Part shown: positions 1 to 55,299 of the stretch, one piece after another
Layout of the letters: every line of letters begins with the position of its first letter
Numbering within the stretch: the stretch's first letter is position 1
NCBI RefSeq assembly: GCF_004359215.1
Contig: NC_090620.1
Span: 527,689 to 591,688 of the forward strand
Origin: Bremia lactucae
Taxonomy: Eukaryota; Oomycota; Peronosporomycetes; Peronosporales; Peronosporaceae
Direction: 5' to 3'
DNA length: 64,000 nt
Program-made: the position numbers and the translations under genes
The notes under the pieces: generated by a model
Told to the model about the DNA's origin: nothing
Databases searched by the model: none
The model's input: the letters and a program-made list of their open reading frames with translations, nothing else

Positions 1-472
1 CAAAGATGGCGCTTACTGTATCAGCTGTACCACGAAAAAGAGCAAAGATGAGCTTAGAGTTGCACCCTGTGGTCACAGGTATTGCCAATCGTGTCTTCTA
101 TGCATGAGCAAACTCGCACTACGTGACCGTGCGCTTGTGCCTCTTCGTTGTTGCAAGAAGGAATTACCCGACGATTATGTGCGAGAAGCATTTCGTAGAC
201 ATAGTGATTTCGCCAAGTATCAGCAACTCGTCGTGGAGAAAGACTGGAAGGTATCAGATCTTAAGTCTGATGCCGAGTACGCAGCAACTGTGATAGCCGT
301 GGGGGCAAAGCAATGTCCTGGCTGTGGTATTGGCGTGCAGCGTGATTTCGGATGTGTGCATATGGCATGCCCAAACGGACACCAATTTTGCTACACATGC
401 CTTGGCGTTTGGGGGACTTGCAAGTGTCCATTAATACCAGAGGCTGAGCTCCGAGCGATTCTCGGCGAGTGA
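1..472 (+). CDS. RBR (RING-IBR-RING)-type E3 ubiquitin ligase, 3' part
   Basis: Reading frame open from base 2 to the stop at 470-472; the 5' end lies outside the window. The visible part begins in RING1 (CISC, then APCGHRYCQSC and RCC) and ends with a RING2/Rcat-like C-terminus: CPGCGIGVQRDFGCVHMAC followed by HQFCYTC and CKC. RBR ligases pass ubiquitin through a Cys in RING2 and here probably act as cytosolic protein-ubiquitin ligases; the substrate is unknown. The segment between the rings is short, so a classical IBR zinc site is not obvious. The same gene occurs inverted at 36825-37505 with no difference noticed in the overlap. It lies tail-to-head upstream of the WEE1 gene, about 400 bp away. 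Family assignment is from the cysteine pattern. Confidence 0.8.
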   Translation, partial: KDGAYCISCTTKKSKDELRVAPCGHRYCQSCLLCMSKLALRDRALVPLRCCKKELPDDYVREAFRRHSDFAKYQQLVVEKDWKVSDLKSDAEYAATVIAVGAKQCPGCGIGVQRDFGCVHMACPNGHQFCYTCLGVWGTCKCPLIPEAELRAILGE

Positions 473-869
473 TGTCTTTGTTAGGCATTGCCTTTAATTT
501 GAGCTTATTGTACTTTTCTGCGCGTTCCTCATCACTCTCACATACGGTGCCGCGACACAGCGATTTGCAGGTATGAAGCTATCTCAATTCTGCACATTGG
601 TTCATACACGTAAAGTATAATTGATTCAGGACCGAAAAACGTCATTAAAATTAAATGTCAGAATGTTTTTATGTATTGCTTGAAGCGTCAAGCATTACCA
701 ATATTATGACATTCATTACGTTTTAATCTTTGCCAAATCAAAATTTTAGGGAATGCCAATTAAAGTATCGGGTGACGCCCCATTTTTTGATATGAATCCT
801 ATCAAAACGCATTAGAAAAGGCGGGAAAATGTTTTGCACAGCACTTTTGGGTAAGGATAGCTGGGCACC
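473..869. other. Intergenic spacer between RBR gene and WEE1
   Basis: About 400 bp without a supported gene. It should contain the RBR terminator and the WEE1 promoter. I see no TATA box or oomycete initiator good enough to mark. It is duplicated in the inverted arm at 36428-36824. Confidence 0.6.
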
Positions 870-3151
870 ATGCTGCTGAACGCTGTGCGATATAAGACGC
901 GGACGGGCGGCGGCTTGTCTCAAGCGTCTAGTGGTGGTAGTTCTGGTGGCACCAAAAAGCAGCGCTCAATACATGATTTCTTCTCTCAATCTTCCTTGGG
1001 CAACAAGCATTTAGGCGTAAGACCCCGCAAGGCTCGACGGTCATTGGAGGCGTCGGCCAAGACTACTAATCGTAGCCACCCTGCCGTGGAAGATAGTGAG
1101 GCCGAAACGATTTCTATACAAAAGTGTATTGACTATGATGTCATAGATGACGACAGTAGCGAGGAATCCATGCTTTTAACCTCGCGGGGCCGCGTCTCTA
1201 AAGGACGCAGGCCTCGGCCTAAAAAGATCGACTTTACTGCCTGCTCAAGTCAGCGTAGCGAACCAGACTATGAACCGACGCACACCCCTCTTCGCTTTGG
1301 GCTACCTCCTACCAGTCAAGGCTACCCAACACCGGGAAAAGCCACTCCTGTGCACCAATATAGCCAAGACGATATGGACTTCCTCACGCCCCGAGATCAG
1401 CCCGTACTTTCACTTTCAAATCCGACAACGCCATCGCCACTAAAGAAAAGACCAAGACTTAGTACTGAAGTGGACATAATTCAGGAGGAGCAGGTGCAGA
1501 ACCTTACCCAAGACATGACCTACATGGATGTGAGGCGCAATAGAAAAGGACTGCCAATATTTTCCAGTCAATCGTCCATGGATGTGGGATCTCCTAAGGT
1601 CAATCTGGAATTGAATGCAAAGAGAGTGAGGCCGAACAGGTGAGTGTCTAGCGCAAAGATGAAATCATGATTGGGCTGCTCAGTGCTCATCTATTTGGTG
1701 CTGCCAAATATTGAATCTAGTGACCAAGCTGCGTCGTTCTTGTCTGAAAATATTTACATGAACCCGTTTGCCCCGGAGCCATCGACCGAGTTAGGAAAAA
1801 AAAAGCTTTCGAGACGCAAACGACAGTCGTTTTCTTCAGCATGGATTGGAGTGGAAAAGGATTCACCCGTGTCCAAGTATCTCTCGAATTTTTCTGAGTT
1901 GGGAGTGCGTGTCTCTCTCCCTGCAAGCAGTTGGTAGACGTGGAGTTTTAACATTCTTGCTTCACGCATGACAGTTAATAGGCTCGGGATCATTTTCTAA
2001 AGTGTTCAAGTGTATGAAGAAAATCGATGGGTGGATGTATGCCGTTAAGAAACGCAAGCGTCATTTTCGGGGCAAAGCCGATACGTACGTGATGATATCG
2101 TCTGGTCAATTCAGAATACATTTGTCTGACGTTTTAGTATTCATTTGGGCAGTGCTCGAGCTCTACGGGAAGTACAGGCTCTTGCTGCGATGAGTAGTAG
2201 CAATCACATTGTTCGATATTTCGATGCTTGGATAGAGGACGATTTGCTTTACATACAGCTTGAAAACCTTGAAGGCTGCTCGTTGGCTAGATTTGTCGAC
2301 AAGTATGCACCACAGAAGGTTCCTGAAGAAACACTGTGCAAGCTCTTGTGTCATACTGCGCAGGTGCGTAAGCCGCAGTATGCAAGGTACAAAAGCTGAG
2401 TAGCTTACAATCGCCTTTAGGCTCTTTACGATATGCACAGCAAAAAGATGGTACACATGGACGTTAAGCTGCAAAATGTACTGATTGGTCCAGGCGATGT
2501 GTACAAGGTTTGTTATGCTTGTTAAGTTCTCGCTTTTTTGAACTTATTTGTGTCAAAAGCTTGGCGACTTAGGAACTGTTGCGCATCTTGACGGCAGTAT
2601 GGAGATCACTGAGGGCGATAACCGGTATCTTAGTCGGTAAGTGTTGCAATCGCGAAGTTGTAAATATTCAAAAGACTTACGTAACTGTAGAGAATTGCTT
2701 GAAGGCAACCGAAATAATTTACGCGCCGGCGATATTTTCGCGTTGGGGGCCATGATCTATGAGCTGGCACTAGGAACAACGCTTGCAAGTTGCGGCGAAG
2801 AGTGGCAAAAGATTCGCGATGGAGACATCGTCATGTTTCGGTACGTCTTATATTATGACCACCAATGGCGTGGCTTTGACGGCTTTGCTTGACCTTCCTT
2901 CTCAGCCAATACTCGAATTCGCTGCAGCACTTGATTGCCAGCATGTTGCATCCTGACGCACTGCAGCGTCCTCTTGCTGAGGATATTCTGCAGCACGAGG
3001 TAATACAACCCTTTCGGTGACCAACCACTTCCTTCTACAAAAGATTCTTGCATGCCGGTAAACTACATTTCAGATTCTAAAATCATTACACTTTGAAAAT
3101 ACAGTCCTCCCTCTGATAACTTATCATTCGCAAACTTACAACCTCCGCTAA
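870..3151 (+). CDS. WEE1: WEE1/MYT1-type inhibitory cell-cycle kinase, nine exons
   Basis: WEE1 kinases phosphorylate the inhibitory Tyr of CDK1 and delay mitosis. My exon model is 870-1639, 1721-1904, 1975-2084, 2153-2363, 2421-2507, 2560-2636, 2691-2840, 2906-2999 and 3074-3151. All introns are GT-AG, phases agree, and the product is 586 aa. The first ~310 residues are disordered and Ser/Pro rich with several SP/TP sites. The kinase domain starts about residue 319: glycine loop IGSGSFSKV (320-328), Lys in YAVKK (~343), catalytic loop HMDVKLQN (437-444), and DLG in place of DFG (457-459) followed by EGDNRYL (472-478), the WEE1-family hallmark. Residues 31-38 (QRSIHDFF) match the PCNA-binding PIP box. 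The last exon is short and its end (stop 3149-3151) is the weakest part of the model; a solo LTR starts 200 bp downstream. An inverted partial copy lies at 35228-36427. Confidence 0.88.
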
Positions 3152-3348
3152 CTTATAGGATTTGACGTCCACCGATGGTCACTAACTTATTACTAATAGC
3201 CGAGAAGCCAGATAAAAAAGATTTTTTTTAGAAAAATGCGGGAGGAATCCTATTAAAGCACTGCGAATGTCAGCCTGAAGGCTGCGGAGTAGCTTATAGG
3301 CAGAACGGTGGGTTTCCTGGGACCGTTCAAGAAAATACATGCACTACC

Positions 3349-3878
3349 TGTTACGGGCTAAAGTTGCCAAATGTTACACAGTCCCCGTTAAGTACACTTG
3401 GTGTACTTAAGGGGATGGTCAATTACTAAATAATAGTAATTAGACCCAGCACTCGGGTGTGGTGCACGTTTGTGACCAACCTTTGTGTATGTGATCCACA
3501 TAGGTGCATTCACATTAGGAGGGATGAAGCTTAGCGTCATCCGTTACGCGAGGTATATAGAAAGATACGCGCGCAATACATATTAGTGTAATCTACAGAG
3601 ATGACATTTTTGATAATAAAATAGGTATTTGTATTTAATGCGATTAAATATAAATCAGTCTGAAAACTACTTTCTACTTAGTAAGTGCGCACAAGGAGAC
3701 GGATTTACCGCTCCCGTGACGACACTTTACTAGAGTACTTAGTGGTTGGGTGAGGTTGCTAAGGCGCCCACCACAACTAACTCGCTGCCTGCAAGAGAAG
3801 CTGGTTAAACCGCTTCCTCGCTGTACTAGTGTGTGTGTCTAAGTAGAGCGTGGCGGCATTACGACGTGCCCGCCTACA
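3349..3878 (+). mobile_element. LTR, family C (530 bp), apparently solo
   Basis: Starts TGTTACGGGC and ends GTGCCCGCCTACA. It is homologous over its full length to 46215-46744 and in part to 50762-51132. Flanking 5-mers (CTACC, CTTGG) give no target duplication. No family C internal sequence adjoins it; 3879-3990 is unassigned and then family B pol begins. It is missing from the other duplication arm, where pol continues instead. The 197 bp between the WEE1 stop and this LTR contain nothing I recognise. Confidence 0.75.
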
Positions 3879-3990
3879 CTTGGTAGCTCTTGAAATCCTT
3901 CCCACGCCCCGCATCTCTTCGTGTGTACGTGAGGATGAGCCTTAATATTGATTGAGCTCATTTTCCCCACCTCTCCGAACATCATCGGTA

Positions 3991-5743
3991 GGTTCACAAG
4001 CCACTCCCAAAGCATACCGCTTGGGGTGCTTACTGCCGTTTTGGCTACATCGGACTCTCTCATGATTACCTGATAGTAGCCATCCTTCAAATCCAACGCG
4101 GAAAAGATAGTTGACTTTCCCATGGAGTTCAACAAGACATCGTTCCGCGGGATGTCGCCGTGTTCAGCTTATTGTATGCATTAACCACGCGCCATCCACC
4201 TGTGGCTTTACGCACACAAAAGGTCGGGCTGCAGTAAGGCGATTTGCTCTCACGCACATGTCCCGCCTTGGCTCGCTTGTCGAAAAACTTTGTTTGGAAC
4301 ATTGGTTGTGGCGCCTAAGGACTTATACCTCCAATCGATCCATTGCTCATGGTGTTCTAACCAAGCTATACCAAGAATGAGATCATATCTCGAACCCAAA
4401 TCAAGGACGAGACAGCGTTCCATACTGTCAAACTCCAGAAACTTTATACCTAAGTTCAATGGAACTTTGGGAACAGTGACACGAGTCCCGGTCGCTAAGC
4501 GAACAGTTATTGTATCACCCATGCACTCTAAGCACATCAACGTATTGCTGACTTCCTTCAAGGGAAAGGCGTCGAGCATAATTGCAAGACGATCCGTAGT
4601 CAATTAAAATTGACCACGGCTTATCAAAGCCCTTTACAGTCGCTCGAGCGACTAGCAAGTCAGGCTTGTACTCTCGCCCCGTGCCAGTAAGCACCGAGCT
4701 AATTGGGGCTAGGTTCTGCTTATTCTCACCTCCTAGAGGTTCAACAGAGCCTAGGTCTTCCCCAGTAGGGCGCCCCGCACCTACTGGGTATCGACGTTAT
4801 CCCCGCACCGTTCCAGATCTCTGGTATAGGTCGGAGTCGGAGCTATTTCGAGCTTTACGCGAATTTCGTAGGGGGCAGGCCGGACGTAAATGTTTCGTGA
4901 TTCCGCACATATAACATCTACGGATGGTCTTATGCTGTTCCACAGCTTGAATAGCCTCTTCTCTTTCCTCAACGAGGCTCAAATCCATAGGTTCCGCTCT
5001 ATTAGATGGAACCCTGTGCTCGAAGAGCTTGTTCGGTAGACGGGCGTGCTAACGCGAGCAGACTTAAAGTCGAACTCGGCGCGTGCAGCGCTATGGCAAC
5101 TGCCTCTTCGAACGTAGTCGGATGAGATCGGAATAATTCCGTCCGGGGGAAACGCCCTCATTGAGACCCCCCCCCATAAAGATAGTTACTACAATTGCTT
5201 CTTGCATCGGGTCTTGATGCATAGATGCAATGCGAGTTCTCAACTCCTGAACAAAGTCCCATAAGGTTCTTTTACCCTGTCGAGTCGCTAGGAGCCGGGC
5301 TCGCATGCGAAAAGCCTGATCAGTCGGTGCAATCATGCTTGTCATTTGCTGTTTCAGCGAATCCCATGAGGGAAAAGCGTCATTTATGGACGTGCTGCAC
5401 ATTAGTGCCCACTCCATGACTCTACCTCCAAGTTTGGAAATGGCCATAGCCACCTTGTGCCGTTCTGTTAAGATCAAGGCGGAATCAATGGACATTTACA
5501 TCTGTTTAATCCAAAAAGGGAGATTTTCTCCCTCTTTTCCCTCATACGTCTTCACATTTACAGCTAGAGGGCAAGCCCTCGGCTCTGAGTCAAGTACAGA
5601 GATGTACCTGGTTGGCCTTGAATGCAGGACCTCTGGTCCCTGGGAGATAATAAATTCCACGTGTTGAAGCATAAATAAACTTTTGAGCTTGTCATAAGCG
5701 GCGCGTTGCGCTTCTAACAGTTCTGGAGTCTCTTCCATTTTCG
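3991..5743 (-). pseudogene. Gypsy family B gag-protease-RT, truncated and frameshifted (left copy)
   Basis: Reading on the minus strand from 5738: a gag frame with an in-frame stop at the 5496/5495 boundary, then capsid-like sequence. A CCHC zinc knuckle (CYMCGITKHLRPAC, ~4850-4900) follows in another frame. Then a retropepsin-like region (4603-4250) and the start of reverse transcriptase with FSALDLKDGYYQ (4110-4070). Homology to the right-arm copy stops abruptly at about 3990, after the RT motif MLWEWLV, so the rest of RT, RNase H, integrase and the 3' LTR are missing. Several frameshifts show it is dead. Confidence 0.85.
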
Positions 5744-5798
5744 TGAGGGTTTAGTCTTGTAAAGACTCAGACGTAGATTGACTACGAGTGCTACCAGG

Positions 5799-6281
5799 TT
5801 CAGCGGAGCTACCTTGCTTCTAAAGTCAGAGAAAGACTTTCTGACTCAGATAGTACTTAGTTCTATTGAACTAATGGGTTTAACAACTCAGGGAGTCGTA
5901 CAAGCTATTAAAGATTAAGGAAATCTAGTTCAAGGGATTCAGGGCTTCGTAGAACTAGGTGGCAACTAGTACCGAAGAGGATATACCTTAGAAAGGCTTC
6001 TATCTCTTACAGATCAATGCGCAAGCCTTAGGAAGGCACTGAACGCTTTAAGATCAAATGGGAAACTGCTGTTTATTTAATTATTTAGATCAAAAATCTT
6101 ACCCTAGCTAATTTAAAATAGATTTCGGCCGCTAGATTTATATCTGGCGGCGACCGTATTTGTTACCCATAATAAATGGGATCTAAGTAATTAAATATTT
6201 TAGAATATGATAAAAGTGTACTTTACCCCTAAAGTAAATGTACCACAACAACGGTTCTCCACCGATGTGTGCCCCATTACA
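5799..6281 (-). mobile_element. 5' LTR of Gypsy family B (left copy)
   Basis: Reverse complement of the LTR at 31015-31496: on the minus strand it begins TGTAATGGGGCACAC at 6281. It is followed inward by a primer-binding site TGGTAGCAC and gag. It was inserted inside an older family A LTR, whose remainder lies at 6282-6545. Confidence 0.8.
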
Positions 6282-6807
6282 ACGCGCCCAAAGAGAGGGA
6301 CAGATAAGACTTTTTTACATGTTTTGTATTAATTTATAATTAAGTTAGTATTTAATAGATAGAACCAGAAGCACTTAATTATATTTAATACAGCTTTAAA
6401 ATAACCCTCTTTAAAGAAAGTGTTTTAAAGGGAGTCTTCTCTGCACGTACTAGTGTACGTGAAGTGACGTGAGACACCACTCGCACTGAAGCAGTGCAAG
6501 GTGTACTTGTACTGAAGCAGTACAAGTCAGTAGTGCCCCGTTACACCGTGTAGCACTTTGTAGTCCGTCCAAGGACCGCAGGTGATAATGGAAATACGCA
6601 TCACGTTTCGCGTGATAGCTACTCTTTTTGTAAGTGACATAGAAAAGAGTGCGGTCGAACGAATGAGTTGGACCATAGGGAACAATGCCATCTTGGCCAT
6701 GCTGTCCGGTGTGGACAGAGATGCCCTCCGTTCAGCCATCGCCAAGTTCATACAATATGAACTTGACGAGGCGAAGGATAAGGTAGCCTTGCTTAATCAG
6801 CAATTAT
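6282..6807 (+). mobile_element. Gypsy family A fragment: partial LTR-A and gag start
   Basis: 6282-6545 is the 3' part of an LTR-A in its true orientation, ending CCCCGTTACA. A degraded primer-binding site TGTAGCAC and a plus-strand frame starting at 6582 follow; the frame includes SAVERMSWTIG. The same segment is present inverted at 30433-31014. It runs into the assembly gap. Confidence 0.7.
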
Positions 6808-6907
6808 NNNNNNNNNNNNNNNNNNNNNNNNNNNNNNNNNNNNNNNNNNNNNNNNNNNNNNNNNNNNNNNNNNNNNNNNNNNNNNNNNNNNNNNNNNNNN
6901 NNNNNNN
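6808..6907. other. Assembly gap (100 N)
   Basis: Exactly 100 N, the usual placeholder for a gap of unknown size. It sits at the inner end of the large inverted duplication, so the true junction is not observed. Confidence 0.99.
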
Positions 6908-10762: not shown

Positions 10763-11202
10763 CAGTAAATGGGGCACTGCTGACTTGTACTGCTTCAGTA
10801 CAAGTCCACTTCGCACTGCTTCAGTCCGACTGGTCCCCCACGTCACTTCACGTACACCAGTACTTGCAGAGGGAGACTCTCTTTAAAACACTTGCTTTAA
10901 AGAGGATTAATAGTAAACTGTATTTAATATAATTAAGTTCTTCTGTTTCTATCTATTTAATACTAACTTAATTATATACGAATACAAAACATGTAATAAG
11001 ATCTTATCTGTCTCTCTTTACGCGCGTCCAGCGCTGACAGGGCGCGGAGCAAGTATATATAATGGCCTATATCTACCAGTGAATAATCTTTTCAAATATT
11101 ACTATGTAAAGCAATATTCTTCAATTATTATCTACCTTTTAGATAATATATTATCAAGCAACCTTTAAGTGTTAATTTTATGTAGCGATACACCCCGTCG
11201 CA
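10763..11202 (-). mobile_element. 3' LTR of a Gypsy family A element (minus strand)
   Basis: About 440 bp, full-length homolog of the LTRs at 47150-47586 and 56995-57423. The orientation is set by a polypurine tract immediately next to it (11203-11217), with pol on the minus strand beyond. The outer end is degraded (GTAAATGGGGCAC instead of GTAACGGGGCAC). It contains many perfect hairpins, such as GTACTG-CTT-CAGTAC near 10790. Confidence 0.8.
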
Positions 11203-11217
11203 TCACCCCTCCCTTAA
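11203..11217 (-). promoter_or_regulatory. Polypurine tract of Gypsy family A
   Basis: Minus strand reads TAAGGGAGGGGTGA directly before the LTR, the expected plus-strand-DNA primer. The same arrangement occurs at 47587-47600 (family A) and 26401-26415 (family D), which supports the element orientation. Confidence 0.65.
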
Positions 11218-11334
11218 ACGACAATCACTATGACTGTCATTGAATAGAGTGGTCACTATAAGACCACTTAATTAAAAATGAAGATGATTGGTTAGAACCA
11301 TCATTTTTATTCTATCGCATAATTAACAAGTCCA

Positions 11335-12735
11335 TGCGATGTGCGAATAGTGCGGCGCCTTCGGCTGCGGTACATGCAGCTGTGGGCGACGCATATTGTC
11401 TCTTGCGGCAGACGTTTCGTCTACCGTAGTTTCATCTTCCCCCGCAACACTAGATGTTGCGGGTGCACGTGGTGAGTCACCACGTAAATGCCACCCCTCT
11501 TTGGAGGTCGACTACGAATGCGAGTCGGACGAATGGCCGACTCGGAGAACGCTGAACAGTCGCCTGATCATCGTCAGGCGGCTGACAGTGAGCCTTCAAA
11601 TGAGGGGGCTCATTCGAGTAGACGTGGTATAGCGTTCGCTATCGCATGCTTGGTTCCGACGATGAGGATGATTCCTCATCGCCAGCACCGTTACCCGTGC
11701 TGTCACCCGCACATATTTCTGTGCGTGGTGATGACGATGGCGTAAGCCATCGTAATAAAAGCTCTTGTTGCCCTCCTACTTTAGTGCGTACCACTCAGGG
11801 GAGCGTAGACAATAAAATGTCTCGTCTTGCTCCTGAGAAGAAGTGGTGGCTTTTGCCAGAACGGCTAATCAATAGCTTGTCTGGAGAGACTAGTCCTCAC
11901 AATAAATATCCCTTATTTATTGCGACAAAGCTACATGGCCTTGATCCCAGCGCGAAGAACTTTCGCGCTGAGGAAGATTTTTATCTCGATGCTTTTCTTA
12001 AGCATCGATGGTATAGTGCAACAACAAACGAGATAAAATCTCGTTGATGCAAGCGTGAATCGAGTTTATTCGCAATATCAAAGAGATTGGACGCGAAGCC
12101 TGCCTTCAAAACTTAACGCGATTCGCGTTAAGTTCGAGAAACGAACTTTAACCGGTGCAAGGTTTTAATTGAATCGGTTGTCTCGTGAGGCAGGACTTTC
12201 AATCCTCACGTGAGGTGATCCCTGTCCGTTTTGTATCGACAACACGAAACGAGTGAAAGGGGATGTTTATTCCCCTTCCTTCGCCCTGGGGAAAGGCTCG
12301 CATCTCTATCGATATGCGAGATGCGATTGAAATTTTGCAATCGATTTACAAGCGCCAGGGGCGCGTGTTTCCAATGGACTTTCTGATTCATCGGATGGGT
12401 CTCGTCCTACTGATGGACGAAGTCTTCAATGTCAACAACCAGCTGGGAACGAGGCTCCCAGCTGTCATGCGAAGGTGGATAACCACGCCAGCGAACAAGA
12501 TAACTCGCTCGCTGTTCCTTCACATCATGACAGTTTAAAAGACGTTTTACAAGGACAGGTTGACCACCGTGGGAATCCACCAATGGTTGTGTTGGAGGTA
12601 AAAAAATTAATTTCGAACCCTGTGGCGGATCCAGAGTCGAAGGTCGACAAACTCGACCACTACCTCCATGTATTGGAGGAGGGTCTTGAACACGAGCGCG
12701 GTAAGCGTCACTGTTTGGAGCAGACGGTGTAGACT
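11335..12735 (+). pseudogene. Antisense reading frame between pol and 3' LTR of Gypsy family A (copy 1)
   Basis: Protein-like plus-strand sequence inside an element whose pol reads on the minus strand. It starts near 11335 with MRCANSAAPSAAVHA. It continues through acidic Ser-rich sequence, then LFIATKLHGLDPSAKNF and RAEEDFYLDAFLKHRW (to 12045). After a frameshift it goes on with a coiled-coil-like stretch around VDKLDHYLHVLEEGLEHE (to 12732). The same protein sequence, with one codon fewer in the middle, is found at 47701-48530, which suggests selection on this frame. No known domain is recognised. It is interrupted by stops at 11452 and 12047, so this copy is broken. Hairpin-forming repeats are very dense here. 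Confidence 0.55.
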
Positions 12736-12825
12736 CACTATATCGATCGGCTGGAAATCGTTCGAAGAGTGCGTACTTAATGTTGGAGTACGAACGGAAG
12801 CTATCCGTGACGAGCTGTCGTCAGC

Positions 12826-15800
12826 TCATCGCGATTTCGAGGAATTTCGGGTCGGCATGAGAATCTCCATACTCAACATGAGAGTCTGGTTCGTGATCGC
12901 ATGAATCTTTTGGGGATTTTTGAAGGGGTGGTCAGATCTGTCCTCGGAAGAAACCGCGTACTGATGGTACGGGCGGAGCCGACCAACGTAAAACGTAGGA
13001 TGCGTTCGCATCTTACGTGGCAATTCTATTGTGTACGCATTGCTTCTGCGATGCAGTACAGGGAAAGGCCCAATGAACTTGGGTAGTAGTTTACTGTTAC
13101 CCACATTAGTGACTACACACTTAGATAAGTTAACCGTAGAGAGTAGTACTAGGTCACTAATTTAAAATGAAATAGTCTCTGCGCACCAGGTTTGTCTGCG
13201 TTCCGTTTCTGACGGTCCACTGCGTTAGCAATGAAATCCTGTCCGAAACGGATTACTGAATCTTGAGCCAGCAAATATTCCTCTGCTGACTCATTTGTTT
13301 GTTATTTTTCTGTGCGCTTTGAGCGCACTGCCATGAGATCGTTCTCATCTTCGATGTCGAAGCAATCGACGTCGACGTCATTCGCGTCGTTGATAACTTC
13401 GACGCGTCATGAGCATGAGCCAGAAATGGTTTTGCTCGTGCGAGTCCACCTCCCCTTAAACTAGACGACCCCTTTAATTGGGTGGGTATACGTGGATGGC
13501 GTAAACCACTCGTATGCGCTGTAGACGCATGCACCGAAATATTGATGGCGATTTCGATCATTTGTAAAAATTCGCTCCAATTCGGATACGATTGGACGAA
13601 ACCTCGAAGTATCTCTTCGAGGACGCGATTTACGCGTTCCGTCTTACCATCTGTTTCCGGATGATCAGTAGTTAACATAGTCAGCCGTGTTCCGAGAGAT
13701 CGGAACACGGACTGCTAGAACTCCGCCGTGAACCGTGGATCACTATCCGAGACTAGCTCACGGAGTGAACCGTGGAGTTTGAATACAGTGTCGATAAAGA
13801 CAAGGGCACAGCCCGGAGCCGTGATCGACTCTGGTATTGCAGCAAGATGTACCATCTTGCTGAATCTGTCTACAAAAACAAGGATTCCATTGTTTTTGTG
13901 ATCGTCTTCGGGAAATCCGAAGACGAAGTCCATAGATACGGACAGCCAACAGTCTGCCGGAAGTGGTAGAGGTTGGAGAGGTGCACGGGATGAATGGCTA
14001 GGCTTCACCCGTTGACATACCTCGCAAGCACGAACGTACTTGCGCACGAACTAATACTGGCGGGGCCAGTAAAAGTCGCGACTTACTGTAGGATAAGTTT
14101 TCTCTTGTCCACGATGCCCATCGTGACACTCATACATGTTGCGCAAGCGCAAATCATTGTGCGTTCGGACGACGAAACGTGGAGTGTTGCCGGCAACGGT
14201 TGTGTATTACAGTAAGCCGTTGCGAGTTGTGTATCGATCGGATGACGATTGATATAAAGCCGGTAGATCTTTTAAAGATTTATTGGATAGATTCATCAGA
14301 TAATCCATTAAACGCAGAAGGTCATTATCTTCTGTGTAGGCTTTCTTTGTGTCATCAAACAAAATTGATGACAGAACACTCGTAATGAGTGTTGCAAAAG
14401 TGTATTATGTTCACTGTTGGAGTACGCAAGCGACTCGAAATTAGGTCGGCGTAAAAACGCATCAGCGACAAAATTAATTCGTCCTAGTTTATATTCCACG
14501 AAAAAATTTAACCCATAGCACCTATAAAAAATAATACAACTATACTTCGCGAAGAAGGATAGCCTTTGGGAGAGGTGTGGGCTGTTTACGGCCGTGCGTA
14601 ATGACGCATGGTCTGTATATACGAAGATCGGTCTACTCCGAGGAGTTAGACCCTAAACTTAGCCAGTGCATACTTCATGCAAGGAGTTCCTTGTCATGCA
14701 CTGAGTAATTGCTCTCAGCTGGTTGCAGCTGAAGCGATTGGTAACAGACGACGCGCTCTGCGCCGTCTGTATCGTATCGCATTAATGCACAGTCGATTGG
14801 GAAATTACTGGCGTCACAGATCACATCGTATGGTATGTCTTAATCTGCAATCGCCAAGATGGGCGATTGAATCAAGCTTTGCTTAATACCTTGAAAGGAA
14901 CGCTGACAATTAGCGTTCCATAGCCATTTCTCGTCTTTTATTCAAGAGACGAGCGAGATGAACTGTCTCTCGGTATAATTGCGGGAGTACTTGTGCAAGT
15001 ACGCCGCTAATCCAATGAACTTTCTAAGTCCCTTGACATCGACTGGAACTGGTATGTCGGTAATTGCCTTGATCTTTTCAGGATCAAGGCGCACGCCATG
15101 TTTACCGACGATGCACCCAAGAAGTGGTACTTCGCTTGCAGCGCATATATACTTTTTGAGAATTGCGTACAACTTATGCTTTTGCATAAGTGTAAGAGCC
15201 TGACGAACGTGAATTTTATGAGCTTCCACGTCCGTTTTACCGTCCATGGCCCGGCTATGGACGAATACATCGTCGAAATAATTCGGTGCGAATTCCCGCA
15301 CCGGTCTCAACAAATTTGTTAAACATCTGTTGAACGTTGCTGGGGCTTTATTAAGCTCCTGAGGCATCACTAGCCATTCCCAGAGCATCACACTGGGAGT
15401 GCTCACTGCTGTGTCCGGGATGTCCCGCTCACGCATAAGGATTTGATAGAACCCATCCATTAGATCCATAGATGAAAAGATGCGTGCACTATCCGCCACC
15501 CTCATGTGGCCTTTCGCACACGGAAGGTCGGAGAGCTATGTGGGGAGGTTGATTTCCTCACATGGCCCGCTTTTACTCGATCGGTAAAGAATTTATCGAT
15601 CGCAAGTACTTGTTTACGAGGCAGTGGCCACTGCTTCATGACACAGTACTTCGAGCCCGGTTTGAGCTCGATCTCATGTCGAGTGCCTTTATCCTTAGGC
15701 AACTCGCATGGAACTGCTTCAGGGAATACATCCCTGAATTCTATTAAATCATCGTATAGAGGATTTCCCTTGAGTGACTCCGGGGTTTGAGTACTGTATC

Positions 15801-16450
15801 TTTCAATCCGAGTCTTCACATCGTGGACATTTTCGTCCATCGATGAGCTGCTGAGAACCCGTTCGTTCTCTGCAAAAATTACCGCTGACCGAATGTCGGT
15901 TACGTAATCGTCCTCTGTGACGAGTACGCAGATCTGCTTGATTTTCCCACAATGCAGATCTCTCAAGAACCGCTTAGGTTCTAGGGTTGGTAATTGAGTT
16001 ATCTCCGAAGTTAACTTCGGAGGCGCATACAGATCAAGAGTATAAGCGCCTACTCTTGATCCGTCATTAACCAAGACATTTAATGTCTCGGTTTTTTCCT
16101 TAGATTTATCCACAGGCTGCCGAGGGATTAATTTCTCGGGATAGAAGTCTAGTAACTTCCACTATTTGAGGAGATTTCTCCTCAAGTACGTGGGGACTTA
16201 TTCCCTCACATATTCCGACTCTGATTGCGCCATCACAGTCGGGTTCTCTACGGTCGACTCTCTACTCGACCTAGGATCATCGTGTTGTCCATTTGGACAA
16301 CCGGTTTCTTCCTTGAGCGTCGCTTGCTACGTACATTCATGTCTCAATCCACTCGACCCCTTCGAGTGGTGGATCTTCGGCGCTGCTTGTGCATTCTCAC
16401 AGCCGCCGGCAGCTGACTCCACAGGGTGATTAGTAACCACACTGTGATCT
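12826..16450 (-). pseudogene. Gypsy family A pol (protease to integrase), degraded
   Basis: Read on the minus strand. Linker and protease-RT region (16450-15505), including KPGSKYCVMKQWPLPRKQ. RT (15505-14942) with SSMDLMDGFYQI, YFDDVFVHS (catalytic DD) and HKLYAILKKYI. RNase H fragments (14900-14300). Integrase (14047-13253) with CEVCQRVKPS, SMDFVFGFP, LVSDSDPRF and TERVNRVLEE, that is the CC of the zinc site and the DDE residues. Last comes a C-terminal piece with FIGPFPVL and MRTHPTFYVGRL (13104-12826). Stops and frameshifts abound, so it is inactive. gag is absent here; an inverted protease fragment lies at 17165-17640 beyond a pogo insertion. Confidence 0.85.
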
Positions 16451-16661
16451 TGTGCAGTAAGTCTTCAGATATGTCATCTAGAAATTAGGGACGTAGACCG
16501 AGCAGCCTGCCCCCTTTTCGCTTAGTGGCTGCTTGCTTAGGCATCTAGTGAAGGAAGTTACATGAGATTATATATTACATGAGGAATATATGTATCTACT
16601 GAACCTCACTTTACTGACTGTCCTATACGATTTTTCCCCTCCTGCTTCCGCAAACCAGCTC

Positions 16662-17160
16662 CATGTCCCAGACGCGCCACCAATTGGCAAAGACTTCAAG
16701 TCTGCAGGCACAAATCACCGAGCCCACAAATGAGCCAGAGTGCCCTTGCATCTTGGGCTACAGCCCAGTACAGTAAGAACATTACGCAGGCTACTATCAG
16801 TGGCATCTTAAAGAAGCGCAATGAGCTGGAGGTCATGACAGAGACTGACCTCGCTGCCAAGCGCCCCTGTTTCGCACACCATCCTCAACTCGAAGAAGCC
16901 CTGGCAACTTGGTTGCTTCAGTGCCAGGCGAAAAACTTTGTTCTCACGGGGCAGATTATCAACGTTAAAAGCCAAGTGCTTTGCTGGCCGCCTGAGGTTG
17001 GCTGAGGATGCTGACAAGTTTTCCAATGGATGGCTTCAGAGGTTCTAGCAGCGAAACAAACTTCATTGCATCCATATTCATGGTTGAAGTGGCTCCATTG
17101 ATCAAAAAGCCATGGAAGCTGCAGTGCCTGAACTCAAGGCAACCATAGCTTGATATGTTT
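16662..17160 (+). pseudogene. pogo/Tigger-like transposase, N-terminal fragment
   Basis: Frame 16730-17005 carries SALASWATAQYSKNITQATISGILKKR-type sequence, a CENP-B-type helix-turn-helix. It is followed in a shifted frame by RLAEDADKFSNGWLQRF, the second HTH half. It ends at the junction with Gypsy protease sequence at about 17160. With the C-terminal half at 9750-10740 it represents the same broad family, but nothing shows that they were one copy. Confidence 0.65.
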
Positions 17161-17164
17161 GTCA

Positions 17165-17640
17165 CTTAGATCCTTAGTGGACTGTGGAGGGTCGAATAAC
17201 TTTATATGCGCCAGTCGCTAGAGGGTCGTAGGCTCAAATATGTTGAGCGCGACATCCCTCCAACGAGGATGACGGTGCGTCTAGCGACAGACGCATCGAT
17301 AACAGTGATGAAACGCATAGTGAGATTTCACTACACGTTAAAAGATTACAGTACGATGATGATTTATCGTACTGGATTTGGATGACAAATTCGATGTCAT
17401 CCTAGGTTTACCTTGGCTCAGAAAGTATGAGCCAAGAATCAGCTGACAGCATCGAATCGTAAAGATGCCTGCCACTTGTTCATCAGATGGCCATCTGATG
17501 AACGTCTTGGAGCGTCCACAAGCGTGTTGATGTTCTACGAGTGAGTGTGATGGCCTCACTTATGGTAAGGTTCTTTGTACGACTTCGCAGTAAACATAAG
17601 TGTTTGTAGCATCCTGACATAAGTGTGCGCTTACGATGGT
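17165..17640 (+). pseudogene. Gypsy family A protease fragment
   Basis: Close nucleotide homolog of 29885-30300: the region with the protease motif (DCGASNNF in the other copy, broken by a stop here), then RMTVRLATDASITVMKR. Includes the perfect 26-bp palindrome centred at 17490. Inverted relative to the pol at 12826-16450. Confidence 0.65.
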
Positions 17641-25913: not shown

Positions 25914-26400
25914 AACGGGGCACCTTGCACTAGTACTGATAAGTACTAGTTAACCTTACACCGATTACAGTGTAGGTGAGGTGCCGCGAAACTTCACGGC
26001 ACAAAAGAAGGTTTCTACGTAGCTAAAGGGCTTTAGCTATCAAAGCCTCAAAGGATGATAATTAGGGAGAAGTAAAACTGTATTAAAATATTAAGTTTCC
26101 TACGTAATCTACTACTGAACTTATCATATTAATAACAAACTAAGTATGGCGCTTCCTTGCGCACCGCACAATCGTTTCTTATAACAATTGGCGGTGTTGA
26201 TGTAGACTTAAATCAACCAATCAATAGAGCTAATGTCTTATTGCATCAATATTATCCAATTCGGAAATATTGGAACTATTTAAGTCAAAACTGTTAAAAA
26301 GAATAATATTATACTTCTTTATTCATTTCCTTCGTAGGAATTAATATTTATAATTCCTCTTATAGGAAATAATACTTATGTAACCGGGCACTCCGTTACA
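25911..26400 (-). mobile_element. LTR, family D (490 bp), 3' LTR of a minus-strand element
   Basis: Begins TGTAACGGGGCACC and ends CACTCCGTTACA; homologous to the solo LTRs at 43452-43936 and 53398-53881. A polypurine tract (minus strand TGGTTGGGGGGGTGA, 26401-26415) adjoins, so this is the 3' LTR of an element lying to its right on the minus strand. It contains hairpins such as CTAGTACT-GATA-AGTACTAG. Confidence 0.8.
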
Positions 26401-26531
26401 TCACCCCCCCAACCAACAGTCGCTATAGTGACTGATGTAGGGTGACAGGAAGTGTATCCCCGTAATTTTGCATTATTGGTTTTAATCAAATAGCGACTTA
26501 ATTTTCATTAATTGATTTTGCCAAAACCAAC

Positions 26532-27090
26532 ATGGCGACGTACAAGTCGGTGCGCGTGGGCCGTGAGGCCGCAAAGCTGACAGCTGCGCGGATCAGTGCA
26601 GCTGTTGGTTATGCAAATGCTTTAGTAGACGCTATTGCGTCTACTGCGGGGAATACATCACCTCCTACTCCCATTGTAGGTGACTCAAACATGTCATTTG
26701 TTGATGACATTGCAGGTGACGGTGACAAGTCTCCTGCTACACCAATTTTAGGTGACTGGACCAAGTCACCAGCATCGCTCGACTCATTGTCTACTGTAAA
26801 GGCCGCTGCATCACCCGGGGCCGAGTCCGATAAGCATTTGGGTTCTAACGTGACAACCAGAGAGGTAATGACGAGGTTGTTCGACTCGTCGGACCTCTTT
26901 GTTGGGGAGGGGCGATGACCGCTTTGGTGACGTTAGTATGCGTCACCAGGAACTAAGTGGTCGCGAAGGGAAGAGTGCTGCGGGTCAGGCTAGTTCGTAT
27001 CACCAGGAAAGGAGTGATTCTAGGGATCGCTCCAAGGGCCAAGTTAACGTTAACGTTAAAATGAGCCAGCAGGAGAGGGAACACTCGTAA
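26532..27090 (+). pseudogene. Antisense reading frame next to LTR-D
   Basis: Plus-strand frame of 128 aa starting MATYKSVRVGREAAKL, Ala-rich at first, then repeated short units of the type SPxTPIxGD (PPTPIVGDSN, SPATPILGDW). It continues in a shifted frame to 27050 with Gln/Arg/Ser-rich sequence. RNase H follows on the minus strand, so the frame is antisense to the element, as in families A and C. No known domain. Confidence 0.5.
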
Positions 27091-27592
27091 TGAGTGTTGC
27101 AACAGTGCGATTATTTTCGCTGTTGGAATGCACTGCTGACTCGAAATCGGGTCGGCGTGATAACGCATCAGCGACGACATTAAGTCGTCCTCGTTTATAT
27201 TCCACGGAGAAATTATACTCCGCGAAAAAGGATAGCCACCTCGCCATTCTTTGCGAGACGTGTGGGCTATTTACGGCCGTGCGTAATGACGCATGGTCCA
27301 TATATACGATGAACGGTCTATCTCCGAGAAATAGACCCTAAACTTAGCCAGTGCATATTTCATGGCAAGGAGTTCCTTGTCATGCACTGGGTAATTGCGA
27401 TCAGCTGGTTGCAGCTGACGCGATAGGTAACAGACGACGCGCTCCGCGCCGTCTGTATCGTATTGCATTAACGCACAGCCGATTGCGAAATCGCTGGCGT
27501 CACAGACCACATGAAATGGTCTGTCTTGATCTGCAATTGCCAAGATAGGCGATTGCATCAAGCTCTGCTTGATACCTACGAAGGAACGCTGG
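27056..27592 (-). pseudogene. Gypsy family A RNase H fragment
   Basis: Minus-strand frames with PFHVVCDASDFAIGCALMQ, YPVHDKELLAMKYALAKF and VVADALSRRPDF, the typical Ty3/Gypsy RNase H order. Integrase, expected next, is missing, and the antisense ORF follows directly. The 5' side joins an inverted RT segment at about 27593, inside a short hairpin. Confidence 0.8.
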
Positions 27593-28370
27593 TGATCGAT
27601 AAATTCTTTATCGATCGATTAAAAGCGGGCCATGTATGGGAGTCAACCTTTCCACATAGCTCTCCGACCTTTTGGGTGCAAAAGGCCGCAGGAGGGTGAC
27701 GGATAGTGCACGCATTCAATAAACTGAATGCTGCAACGCTACCCGGCTCAATCGCCGATACCTAGAAAATACGTAATCATAGATGGAATAAGAGTACCAT
27801 CTTTTCGTCTATGGATCTGATGGATGGACTTTATCAGATCCTTATGCGTGAACGGGACATCCCGTACACAGAAGTGAGCACTCCCAGTGGGTTGCTCTGG
27901 GATTGGCTAGTTATACCAAAAGAGCTTAGCAATGCCCCTGCAACATTCAACTGATGCGTAACGAATATGATGAGACCGGTGCGAGAATTCGCACCGAGTT
28001 ATTTTGACGATGTATTCGTCCATAGCCGGGCAATGGACGGAAAGACGGACGTGGAAGTTCATGAAACTCACGTTTGTCAGGCTCTTACACTTATGCAAAA
28101 GCATAAGTTGTACGCAATTCTCAAAAAGTATATTCGCTGCAAGTGGAATACCACTTGTTAAGTGCATTGTCGGAAAACACGGCGTGCGGCCTGATCTTGA
28201 AAAGATCAAGGCAATTACTGACATACCAGTTCCAGTCGATGTCAAGGGACTTAGAAAGTTTCTTGGATTAGCGGCGTACTTGCACAAGTACTCCCGCAAT
28301 TATACCGAGAGACAGGTCATTTCTCTCGTCTCTTGAAAAAAGACGAGAAATGGCTATGGAACGCTGATTG
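27593..28370 (+). pseudogene. Gypsy family A reverse transcriptase, inverted segment
   Basis: Plus-strand RT with VIDKFFIDRLKAGHV, IFSSMDLMDGLYQILM, YFDDVFVHSRAMDG and GLRKFLGLAAYLHKYS, broken by several stops. It is the same sequence type as 14920-15600 but opposite in strand to the RNase H before it and the linker after it. Both ends carry halves of hairpins seen intact in the unrearranged copy. Confidence 0.8.
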
Positions 28371-28980
28371 AAAGTATTTGTTCACGAGGCAGTGGCCACT
28401 GCTTCATGACACTGTACTTCGAGCCCGATTTGAGCTCGATCGAAATGACTTTAACCTTTGGCAACTCGCATGGAACTGCTTCAGGGAATGACATCCCCGA
28501 ATTCAATCAAATCCTTGTTTAAGGAATTGTCTTATGTGACTTTCAGTATTGATAGTATATCACTCAATCCGAGTCTTCACATCGACGGCACTTTCGTCCA
28601 TCGATGAGCTGCTGGCTGCAGAAATTGTTGCTGACCGAATATCGTTTACGTTCCTCTGTGACAAGTACGTAGATCTGCTTGTTTCTACCACTATGCAGAT
28701 CTCTTAAGAACCGCTTGGGATTTATCCACAGGCTGCCGAGGGATCAATTCCACGGGATGCTAAAGTCTAGTCACTTCAGCATTAACTTTTTGAGGGGATT
28801 TCTCCTCAAGTACATGTGGACTTATTCCCTCAACGTCATCCGACTGTGATTGCGCTACCACAGTGGGGTCCTCTTCGGTCGACTCTCTACTCGACCTAAG
28901 ATCATGGTTTTGTCCATTTTGGACAACCGATATCTTCCTTGAACGTCGCTTGCTAGGCGTACATTCATGTCTCAATCCAC
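28371..28980 (-). pseudogene. Gypsy family A protease-RT linker
   Basis: Nucleotide homolog of 15600-16360 on the same (minus) strand, for instance CACGAGGCAGTGGCCACTGC. The minus-strand frame starting at 29071 has SKRRSRKISVVQNGQ. It is internally shortened relative to the other copy. Confidence 0.65.
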
Positions 28981-30390
28981 TATCTCTTAGTATAGGGGAG
29001 TCGAAGAAGACTATCTTAAGATGGTTTGTCGAGTTGATGCCATAAGGGCTCGTCACATCGTCGACAAGCAAAGCAAAACTTAGGCACTAGGCATTAAGTT
29101 TCACGACCCATATGTCTTTGGGTCGCTAGATGCTTTTAAAGCCCGGCTCAAACAGACGTTGAACCGCCTAGGGGTGAGTTCAGACCTCGGACAGAGCTTC
29201 TGAAACTCAAACAAGGCAAGCGTGATGTGCACGCTTATGCCCAGCAAATATGACTCTTAGCGAGTGTATCACAAACAGCTCAATACATGACACACGTTGA
29301 TTACGGTGTTCATGCAAGGTCTTACGGATGGTCCCGTAGAGACCCACCTGTTCCGCTTGGAGCTGGATACGGTTGAAGAAGCAATATCCGTTGCGGAACA
29401 GGAGGACTTTTGCTTGAAACAGGCTCAAGCTAGTTCGTCACCGTATCGTCTTACAAGACGATACGAGCTTGGAGGTCCAGAACCTATGGACCTCTTATAT
29501 GTCGAAAGCGAGAAACCTTCCTTTTCGAACAATAAGCGATTGCAGAAATGCAATCTCTGTCAAAATTTAGGACACTACGCTCATGAGTGTAGTGCCCCAC
29601 GCCCATTACCAAGAGGTACTGAAAGTAATTATGGACCGAATGCCCAAAAGGGCTACGGTCGCGGGTCCGACGTTGTTGCAAAATCGCAACTGCGAGGCGG
29701 ACCGCCAAAAAACGGTCGGGGTCAGTAGGGGCGCAACGCCCTACTGATCCAGCAACCTCAAGAGAAATTGCAAATTTCTTGACTAAAGTTGCTCCAGACA
29801 CAAAATCAGTATGTGTCTCTGCACCTGGTGATGAGGTATCCTCATCACCTTGAAGATAAAAGTGACAAAAATTTGTCAGAGCCCTAGTGGACTGTGGGGC
29901 GTCGAATAACTTCATTCGTCGCCAGTCGCTAGAAGGACGTAGGCTCAGATATGATGAGCGCGACATCTCTCCAACGAGGATGATGGTCCGTCTAACGACA
30001 GGCGCATCGATAACAGTAATGAAACGCGTAGTGAAATTTCACTGCACTTTAAAAGAATTACAGTACGATGATGATTACATCGTACTGATTTTGGATGCCA
30101 AATTTGGTGTCATCCTAGGTTTACCTTGGCTCAAAAATATGAGCCAAGAATCAGCTGACAGCATCGATCCGTATAGATGCCTGCCACTTGTTCATCAGAT
30201 GGCCATCTGATGAACGTCTTGGAGCGTCCACAAGCGTGTGGATGTACTACGAGTGAGTGTGATGGCCTCACTTGAGGTACGGTCGTTAGTACGAATACAC
30301 AAGATCTCAGTGTGATTACTAATCACCCTGTGGAGTCAGCTGCCAGCGGCTGTGCGAATGCACAGGCAGCGCCGAAGGTCCACCACTCGA
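28981..30390 (+). pseudogene. Gypsy family A gag (CCHC) and protease, inverted segment
   Basis: Plus-strand gag: DAFKARLKQTL, LITVFMQGLTDGPVETHL, then a zinc knuckle CNLCQNLGHYAHEC (CX2CX4HX4C) near 29550-29590, ending at the stop at 29728. The protease follows (29887-30210) with DCGASNNFIRR replacing the usual D(S/T)G, and VILGLPWL. The order gag-protease is normal within the segment, but the segment is inverted with respect to the flanking linker and gag start. Stops interrupt the first 300 bp. Confidence 0.8.
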
Positions 30391-31014
30391 ATAGTCAGTC
30401 GATCTTTGAGGTTTTGGGACGACGCGTGTGCGTCATCCCAGGTACAGGGGTCTGTACCTGTTGAACTTCAACAGTTCTGCCTGTTGAAATAATTGCTGAT
30501 TAAGCAAGGCTACCTTATCCTTCGCCTCGTCAAGTTCATATTGTATGAACTTGGCGATGGCTGAACGGAGGGCATCTCTGTCCACACCGGACAGCATGGC
30601 CAAGATGGCATTGTTCCCTATGGTCCAACTCATTCGTTCGACCGCACTCTTTTCTATGTCACTTACAAAAAGAGTAGCTATCACGCGAAACGTGATGCGT
30701 ATTTCCATTATCACCTGCGGTCCTTGGACGGACTACAAAGTGCTACACGGTGTAACGGGGCACTACTGACTTGTACTGCTTCAGTACAAGTACACCTTGC
30801 ACTGCTTCAGTGCGAGTGGTGTCTCACGTCACTTCACGTACACTAGTACGTGCAGAGAAGACTCCCTTTAAAACACTTTCTTTAAAGAGGGTTATTTTAA
30901 AGCTGTATTAAATATAATTAAGTGCTTCTGGTTCTATCTATTAAATACTAACTTAATTATAAATTAATACAAAACATGTAAAAAAGTCTTATCTGTCCCT
31001 CTCTTTGGGCGCGT
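30391..31014 (-). mobile_element. Gypsy family A gag start, primer-binding site and partial 5' LTR
   Basis: Minus-strand frame 30714-30433 (SAVERMSWTIG, ALRSAIAKFIQYELDEAKD) with a likely coiled coil. Upstream on the minus strand is a degraded primer-binding site, and LTR-A occupies 30751-31014. LTR-A is cut at 31015 by the family B element. It is the counterpart of 6282-6807. Confidence 0.7.
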
Positions 31015-31496
31015 TGTAATGGGGCACACATCGGTGGAGAACCGTTGTTGTGGTACATTTACTTTAGGGGTAAAGTACACTTTTATCATATTCTAAAATA
31101 TTTAATTACTTAGATCCCATTTATTATGGGTAACAAATACGGTCGCCGCCAGATATAAATCTAGCGGCCGAAATCTATTTTAAATTAGCTCGGGAAGATT
31201 TTTGATCTAAATAATTAAATAAACAGCAGTTTCCCATTTGATCTTAAAGCGTTCAGTGCCTTCCTAAGGCTTGCGCATTGATCTGTAAGAGATAGAAGCC
31301 TTTCTAAGGTATATCCTCTTCGGTACTAGTTGCCACCTAGTTCTACGAAGCCCTGAATCCCTTGAACTAGATTTCCTTAATCTTTAATAGCTTGTACGAC
31401 TCCCTGAGTTGTTAAACCCATTAGTTCAATAGAACTAAGTACTATCTGAGTCAGAAAGTCTTTCTCTGACTTTAGAAGCAAGGTAGCTCCGCTGAA
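31015..31496 (+). mobile_element. 5' LTR of Gypsy family B
   Basis: Begins TGTAATGGGGCACAC and ends near GTAGCTCCGCTGA; about 480 bp. Orientation follows from the adjoining primer-binding site and gag. Copies at 42018-42479 and 54832-55291 end GTAGCTCCGCTACA. It interrupts LTR-A at TGGGCGCGT. Confidence 0.85.
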
Positions 31497-31498
31497 CC

Positions 31499-31515
31499 TG
31501 GTAGCACTCGTAGTC
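31499..31515 (+). promoter_or_regulatory. Primer-binding site of Gypsy family B
   Basis: TGGTAGCACTCGTAG two to three bases after the LTR, complementary to a tRNA 3' end reading GTGCTACCA, as in initiator tRNA-Met-like acceptors. Family A has the matching TGGTAGCAC at 56992-56984 (minus strand). Confidence 0.6.
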
Positions 31516-31556
31516 AATCTACGTCTGAGTCTTTACAAGACTAAACCCTCACGAAA

Positions 31557-42010: not shown

Positions 42011-42017
42011 GGGAGGA

Positions 42018-42479: not shown

Positions 42480-42519
42480 GTTCTCTTGTCAATATCGTTA
42501 GAAATGACCTCAATCTACA

Positions 42520-47586: not shown

Positions 47587-47700
47587 ATCACCCTCCCTCA
47601 AACGACAATCACTCTGACTGTCATTGGGTAGAGTGGTCACTATAAGACCACTTTATTAAAAACGATGTTAATTGGTCAGATTCATCATTTTTAATTCTAT

Positions 47701-55291: not shown

Positions 55292-55299
55292 TCCTCCCT

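Follow-up and report, generated by a model that had tools for sequence, protein, structure and literature searches.

Some Ty3/Gypsy retroelements of the oomycete Bremia lactucae are saturated with short perfect hairpins. The counts gathered here support the view that these hairpins are an inherited trait of particular Ty3/Gypsy lineages, already present in the source copies, and that after insertion they are lost rather than made. The DNA analysed (the window) comprises 64,000 nt of assembly GCF_004359215.1 (contig NC_090620.1, positions 527,689 to 591,688, forward strand). A hairpin was defined as a perfect inverted repeat with arms of at least 7 bp and a loop of 13 nt or less, and the chance level for the window was taken from 10 rounds of 1-kb dinucleotide shuffles. 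The window holds 262 hairpins against 52.3 ± 6.5 after shuffling, and 72 with arms of at least 9 bp against about 3.5. The element at 11335–16450 contains 46 against 3.7, 18 of them with arms of at least 9 bp. Kilobases with host genes mostly hold 0–2 hairpins each, and among five frames treated as host genes, with a Pfam match in three, the total is 2 compared with 4.6 in codon shuffles. The hairpin excess in retroelements and its contrast with host genes, both put forward in the original prediction, are therefore borne out, with a density above that of shuffled sequence and host DNA alike.

The element at 11335–16450 lies on the minus strand and represents a broken-framed copy of a Ty3/Gypsy chromodomain family, termed family A. 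A Gypsy-type reverse transcriptase (RT) segment occupies 14945–15535 (RVT_1, E = 1.8e-14) and shares 54–59% identity with the RT frames of Gypsy families G1, G2, G3 and window family C, in which RT_RNaseH domains are present. Among the at least 120 protein matches listed, identity of this segment reaches 70–78% for named Peronospora and 60–69% for named Phytophthora. Downstream of the RT, an integrase segment (13718–14050) gives weak matches to Integrase_H2C2 (E = 0.0011) and rve (E = 0.002), both under the Pfam cut-off, and adjoins an SH3_Tf2-1 segment above the cut-off (12829–13161; PF24626, E = 5.2e-15). A C-terminal chromodomain follows at 12410–12820 (PF00385, E = 1.3e-10); all these segments are on the minus strand. 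The stretch at 10768–11198, found again elsewhere in the window, has an LTR-like look.

Individual hairpins named in the original prediction were recovered throughout. All nine consecutive perfect hairpins listed for 11441–12008 stand at the positions given, four with a true arm one base longer. In the integrase region, the hairpin at 13685–13710 (arm 11, loop 4) is matched by a perfect hairpin in 15 of 17 aligned copies, and that at 13902–13926 (arm 10, loop 5) in 17 of 21; the latter lies within the integrase segment together with hairpins at 13840–13862 and 13872–13899. Hairpins GTATCGTCTT/AAGACGATAC (29443/29455) and CAGTACGATG/CATCGTACTG (30061/30078) were likewise confirmed, and so were two identical perfect 26-bp palindromes, at 17478–17503 and, in family D, at 30190–30215. 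Loops most often measure 3–5 nt, and the excess is mostly gone past about 16, which points to folding over short distances.

The strength of the pattern is graded by lineage. The excess over shuffles amounts to 11- to 15-fold in families A, D and F, 6.4-fold in G1, 3.1-fold in G3 and 2.5-fold in G2; outside Gypsy, it falls to 1.6-fold in host stretches and 1.3-fold in 21 other RT loci. For family A it is 12.6-fold, rising to about 68-fold when arms of at least 9 bp are counted. The family D copy in the window (26000–30310) carries 10.4 hairpins per kb (15-fold) and the family F copy (47151–49000) 10.8 (11-fold), the latter being 84.5% identical to family A over 10768–12102 and having some hairpins in common with it. 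An element of family C/G3 with an open RT-RNaseH frame (33127–34528, plus strand) provides a hairpin-poor contrast, with 1 hairpin against 0.67 in codon shuffles. The extension of the pattern to families B and C is therefore weakly true, this frame being at chance but its G3 relatives exceeding shuffles as above. The family comparison excludes two mosaics (L034 and L051), whose excess is located in their Gypsy pieces, as well as L059, which lies near A/D, and L035, which has its own count (4 against 1.6). Four loci totalling 9.6 kb make up the Copia set. The contrast between Gypsy and other RT loci is not absolute, since two of the latter are somewhat raised (L023, 9 against 3.0; L028, 9 against 2.6). 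The long frame of L023 and the RT pieces of L021 and L028 gave RVT_1 only in a Pfam scan; as the scan covered these three, calling the remaining loci "non-LTR" is guesswork. All oomycete DNA compared comes from the B. lactucae genome. Searches for relatives returned none among viral contigs, one distant RT contig among genome contigs (L065; 13 hairpins against 10.6) and one distant match among plasmids, in a Wolbachia record.

Comparison among copies indicates how the pattern is transmitted. All 20 genomic relatives that were fetched abound in hairpins, many of them at the same places, and the pattern is therefore inherited. Forty-four sites carry a perfect hairpin in 30% or more of their block's copies, the best conserved in 19 of 21. 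Changes private to single copies of family A produced 35 hairpins against 29.1 expected (1513 clusters, non-overlapping references) and destroyed 164, losses being more frequent than gains; private multi-base clusters formed hairpins in 3 of 400 cases against 2.96 expected. Requiring strict agreement of the other copies gave 12 single-change gains against 10.3 and 0 multiple-change gains against 0.98 in family A. A relaxed test with overlapping references gave 61 against 61.6 and 4 against 3.9, respectively, with single-change values of 1 against 0.73 in G1 and 1 against 1.13 in G3. Within the Gypsy families covered by these tests (the other RT loci have no alignment blocks), private gains occur at about the chance rate; hairpins therefore do not arise after insertion, and their perfection in situ was rejected.

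Changes common to at least three copies were compensated in 5 of 41 cases compared with 7 of 376 (Fisher p = 0.003), mutation counts that are not independent because the copies are related. The other 36 of the 41 shared changes lack compensation. Hairpins also persist under coding constraint: codon-preserving shuffles, the control called for at the outset, leave an excess in nearly intact G1 frames (20 against 4.1) and in the family A RT segment (5 against 0.62). In blocks from 12535 on, where the frame was set separately for each copy, no stop column is common to more than 4 copies. The ancestor therefore probably coded for protein, and loss of coding was rejected for these blocks as the cause of saturation.

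The sequence patterns point, at a confidence just short of even, to hairpins being built and kept perfect during retrotransposition by fold-back copying of nascent DNA. Here, inheritance is supported by counts and construction during retrotransposition is the step that we infer. During its synthesis, the nascent DNA would fold its 3′ end onto a nearby, nearly complementary stretch, extend it on itself and then return to the template, turning one arm into a precise reverse complement of its partner. Across many cycles, near-palindromes would become perfect palindromes, and any point mutation newly arisen in either arm would be erased or else copied to the opposite one. The sequence would thereby fill with hairpins of 7–11 bp arms wherever the protein tolerates them, and rare longer fold-backs would yield inverted duplications of 20–46 bp. 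A process acting at retrotransposition fits because the pattern is restricted by lineage, gains are absent after insertion, compensation is higher among shared changes and three fold-back insertions exist. Slightly less probable is the broader proposal that reverse transcription in a Gypsy lineage may constitute a palindrome-making drive, in which a self-templating mutational bias, and not selection, shapes the whole element including its coding frames into a series of perfect hairpins.

The fold-back insertions, missing from relatives, account for three of the six hairpins with arms of at least 13 bp among loci L001–L065: L044 (arm 46, loop 8), L048 (arm 20, loop 9) and L010 (arm 22, loop 22). 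Alignments are clean for L044 and L048 and gappy for L010, and the insertions may have originated after integration or by assembly error. Those of L044 and L010 came from the list of long arms. A separate script marked 5 of 32 private insertions as the reverse complement of their flank, against 0.46 expected, of which L048 alone was clean on viewing. The L018 insertion is situated where the copy departs from its relatives, one of two in L005 is common to other copies while the other could not be located, the stretch displayed for it being unrelated, and that of L020 was viewed only alongside the one-arm cases. One-arm multi-base changes showed no excess, the differences splitting binomially between arms (1499 of 4575 hairpin comparisons had at least two) and private multi-base clusters being at chance. 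Striking single one-arm cases were seen at L001, L007 and L011. Among 352 loop pairs, 3 were reverse complements against 2 reversed (one site, both strands) and 1 complemented; loop inversion, another expected sign of fold-back copying, appears to lie near background.

The main rival to fold-back copying is strand-symmetric selection, a less likely reading in which hairpins benefit the element and mutations that break them are selected against in source copies. Possible benefits include folding of single-stranded cDNA, the hiding of both sense and antisense RNA from small RNAs, or stems too short for Dicer. The presence of hairpins within open coding frames such as those of G1, arms that seldom exceed 11 bp and the compensation among shared changes all accord with this account. 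So does the mainly transposable-element origin reported for the larger small-RNA class in Phytophthora (PMC3804510). However, change was not slower in the arms, where the ratio of shared to private changes was 38/246 compared with 130/990 elsewhere (OR 1.18, p = 0.41; small numbers), and hairpins have no dominant loop sequence.

Selection on the sense RNA, through packaging, stability or genome-scale ordered structure as in some viruses, is disfavoured and appears quite improbable. Family A folds strongly in the sense orientation (z = −3.57), in keeping with such selection, but the antisense strand folds equally (z = −3.35). The difference of −0.23 ± 0.18 gives no sense advantage, whereas one was detected in the rRNA positive control (−0.61 ± 0.13). 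Unique stems with one mismatch comprised 55 G-U against 80 A-C pairs, and changes common to at least three copies 12 against 16. This lack of G-U preference, the equal folding of both strands and the advantage seen in rRNA are what disfavour sense-RNA selection; strand symmetry without G-U preference is what a fold-back process would be expected to leave. Some RNA viruses possess genome-scale ordered RNA structure, with pervasive folding along the coding genome, as a property of the sense RNA; here, in contrast, both strands show similar folding and stems have no preference for G-U. Of the two causes originally offered, selection and a mutational process of reverse transcription, the former is disfavoured in its sense-RNA form, and the latter fits most observations but not the lack of an excess of one-arm multi-base changes.

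More doubtful again is a post-insertion origin, in which host DNA replication or repair would switch templates by folding back. A yeast study reports template switching at inverted repeats within coding DNA (PMC8604942), and the three fold-back insertions, each in a single copy, would suit this account, but in Gypsy blocks private gains are near chance and losses commoner, and the excess is small in host stretches and in the other RT loci of this genome. As an account of the overall pattern, chance, composition or assembly artefact is refuted and has a negligible probability: the assembly has many gaps, but the excess of family A over dinucleotide shuffles is large and individual hairpins are found again in copies that have diverged.

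Ty3/Gypsy chromoviruses resemble family A in their RT, integrase, Tf2-1-like SH3 and chromodomain segments, but differ in that both coding and non-coding parts of family A are hairpin-saturated; we know of no report of such saturation in chromoviruses. Palindromes of Sirevirus LTRs are not known to extend beyond an LTR regulatory region, whereas the hairpins described here continue into gag, RT and integrase stretches. Structured maize LTR retrotransposons share the enrichment of self-complementary sequence in LTR elements (PMC10760457). Template switching at inverted repeats and quasi-palindrome correction (PMC8604942; see also PMC3820800 and PMC3855049) would give perfect, short, strand-symmetric hairpins with homogenised arms. 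The yeast case involves a DNA polymerase and single sites (PMC8604942), whereas here whole elements are tiled; quasi-palindrome correction further predicts a multi-base one-arm signature, for which no excess was seen. Among the papers listed in literature searches, judged by title and abstract opening, there is no description of hairpin-saturated Gypsy elements, in line with the original remark that none was known for those of oomycetes.

If fold-back copying is the correct reading, the copying habit of an enzyme would have rewritten the sequence of an entire element lineage. Such a drive by mutation, which leaves its trace at intervals of a few dozen bases without precluding open coding frames, would offer a natural system to measure template switching by the RT of LTR elements. 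If selection is responsible, the hairpins would represent a strand-symmetric structural adaptation spanning a whole retroelement; we know of none from other elements. Under either cause, such sequences should not be taken as ordinary DNA when modelling how oomycete elements age or are targeted by small RNAs.

The Gypsy element at 11335–16450 had been described as saturated with short perfect hairpins, and every hairpin named in that original prediction was located at its position. With a hairpin defined as a perfect inverted repeat with arms of at least 7 bp and a loop of up to 13 nt, the 64-kb window contains 262, against 52.3 ± 6.5 in dinucleotide shuffles made per kilobase over ten rounds; for arms of 9 bp or more, the counts are 72 and about 3.5. 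The element itself carries 46 hairpins, including 18 with arms of 9 bp or more, against 3.7 in shuffles. Because both counts far exceed the shuffles, a density at the level of shuffled or host coding sequence is clearly excluded. Host genes differ from the element as predicted: five frames taken as host, three of them with a Pfam match, hold 2 hairpins in total against 4.6 in codon-preserving shuffles. The finding is real and strong.

RVT_1, Tf2-1-like SH3 and chromodomain segments, together with weak H2C2 and rve integrase segments, lie in broken frames on the minus strand and indicate a chromodomain Ty3/Gypsy element (family A). Among 120 proteins listed of 656, its RT segment is 70–78% identical to Peronospora-named proteins and 60–69% identical to Phytophthora-named ones. 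An adjoining plus-strand frame (16583–17002) matches HTH_ABP1_N and, just under the cut-off, HTH_Tnp_Tc5. The genome examined comprises 115,934,607 bases in 220 contigs; the B. lactucae SF5 assembly, at 115 Mb, is described as including 24 Mb of gaps and 53.3 Mb of Gypsy sequence (PMC6570648). Elsewhere in the window, 1–6807 and 30489–37296 match in opposite orientation at 99.8–100% (1–2069 with 37296–35228, 3994–6807 with 33301–30489), with no listed match for the parts between the matched ends. Either one element is present here in two very young copies whose interiors differ, or the arrangement is an effect of assembly beside the gaps 6808–6907 and 34529–35227.

The excess is specific to lineages. 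Hairpins reach 8.77 per kb in family A (0.70 in shuffles), 10.4 in family D (26000–30310; 0.70) and 10.8 in family F (47151–49000; 0.95). Lower densities occur in the further Gypsy families G1 (4.63 against 0.72), G2 (2.17 against 0.86) and G3, the relatives of family C at 33127–34528 (2.16 against 0.70). Codon-preserving shuffles of two nearly intact G1 frames yield 4.1 hairpins, whereas the frames themselves carry 20. Family E, an AT-rich inverted pair of 4.9 kb and 94% identity (41553–46409 and 50939–55756), is moderately rich at 3.72 against 1.19, or 3.1-fold. Host stretches give 1.01 against 0.64, four Copia loci 1.04 against 0.47 (a total of 10 hairpins, which allows no judgement) and 21 other RT loci 0.93 against 0.73. 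Within the last group, loci L023 (9 against 3.0) and L028 (9 against 2.6) are somewhat raised, almost all of their hairpins having arms below 9 bp. In the mosaic loci L034 and L051, most hairpins fall within the A/F-related piece. For scale, E. coli 16S and 23S rRNA have 1.35 hairpins per kb and none with arms of 9 bp or more.

Loop lengths peak at 3–5 nt (85, 121 and 133 cases against 2–5 in shuffles), loops of 0–2 nt being fewer. The excess is mostly gone beyond about 16 nt, with exceptions at isolated lengths (22, 35 and 36 among them). Arm lengths drop steeply after 11 bp, and no loop sequence dominates among the hairpins. The peak and the fading excess are expected if a single strand folds locally, but not from a shared motif vocabulary. 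Hairpins in open frames (three fetched loci, L037, L054 and L048, and window positions 33127–34528) lean towards the phase pairing codon positions 1 and 3 (19 of 36 against 12 expected, counted by hand).

Changes private to one copy mostly postdate insertion. In family A, 35 of 1513 private clusters make a hairpin with arms of 8 bp or more, where random substitutions would make 29.1. Of the same clusters, 164 break a hairpin; two variant runs agree. Once inserted, copies therefore lose hairpins and scarcely gain any. Changes found in three or more copies should date from source lineages, and pairing was kept by a partner-arm change in 5 of 41 of these against 7 of 376 rarer ones (Fisher p 0.003, the copies being related and the counts non-independent).

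Tentatively, the most likely mechanism in these Gypsy lineages is fold-back copying, in which nascent DNA would fold back and be extended on itself while reverse transcription is under way. Six hairpins among the fetched loci L001–L065 have arms of 13 bp or more and loops of up to 25 nt, and three are inserted reverse-complement copies adjoining their source. These lie in L048 (arm 20, loop 9; five siblings without it), in L044 at 1106–1205 (perfect, arm 46, loop 8; three siblings without it) and in L010 (arm 22, loop 22; three relatives without it, in a gappy alignment). None of the six lies in the 21 other RT loci or the four Copia loci. Separately, a 13-bp-arm hairpin at L019:4673–4702 sits in a stretch without clear relatives and may be a small insertion of its own. 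An automatic screen assigned 5 of 32 private insertions to the reverse-complement type against 0.46 expected; on viewing, one (L048) was upheld. Quasi-palindrome correction predicts that several bases of one arm are often altered at once. No excess of such changes is seen, differences splitting binomially between arms (1499 comparisons with at least two differences, of 4575). Among these, full pairing survives in 59 of the 817 comparisons that differ at two bases and in 3 of the 186 that differ at four. Private multi-base clusters give hairpins in 3 of 400 cases against 2.96 expected, and loop inversions are at background level. Given the missing one-arm signature and background loop inversions, we infer the process from its product, lineage, timing, strand symmetry and three insertions, and not from a clear mutational spectrum. 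The pattern of families A, D and F may simply be old. In titles and abstract openings of the open-licence papers listed, no description of such hairpin tiling was found; the nearest there are template switching in yeast coding DNA (PMC8604942) and structured maize elements (PMC10760457).

The main rival, strand-symmetric selection, is less likely. Shared changes are no less frequent in arms (38 shared, 246 private) than elsewhere (130 and 990; p 0.41, from related, non-independent copies), which argues against strong purifying selection. Selection on sense RNA, one form of the selection for RNA or ssDNA structure originally proposed, fails both of its predictions: G-U pairs are not preferred in unique one-mismatch stems (55 against 80 A-C) or among changes found in three or more copies (12 against 16), and the sense strand of family A folds no better (z −3.57 sense, −3.35 antisense, 83 windows; values around 0 for 48 host windows). 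Applied to rRNA, these tests returned the expected asymmetry (sense minus antisense −0.61 ± 0.13; G-U 3, A-C 0). The other proposed cause, a mutational process in reverse transcription, is tentatively favoured.

Hairpin saturation is a family trait. All 20 fetched relatives of the integrase region are hairpin-rich (20–56 per stretch against 1.8–4.6 shuffled), several containing long runs of N. Alignment in 400-base blocks shows many hairpins recurring at fixed positions (perfect in, for example, 15 of 17, 19 of 21 and 18 of 20 copies), some of them where the window copy has none; others are confined to few copies or one. Over the blocks that hold at least nine copies, 44 sites carry a perfect hairpin in 30% or more of the copies, at a median spacing of 51 bases with many near 30, and arms occupy 25% of alignment columns. 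Across 35 comparisons with family A hairpins, families D and F and relatives keep 87% of pairs at roughly 80–90% identity, so part of the pattern is older than those families. Since no stop column in the coding blocks is common to more than four copies, the ancestral element probably encoded protein at a time when it already bore hairpins.
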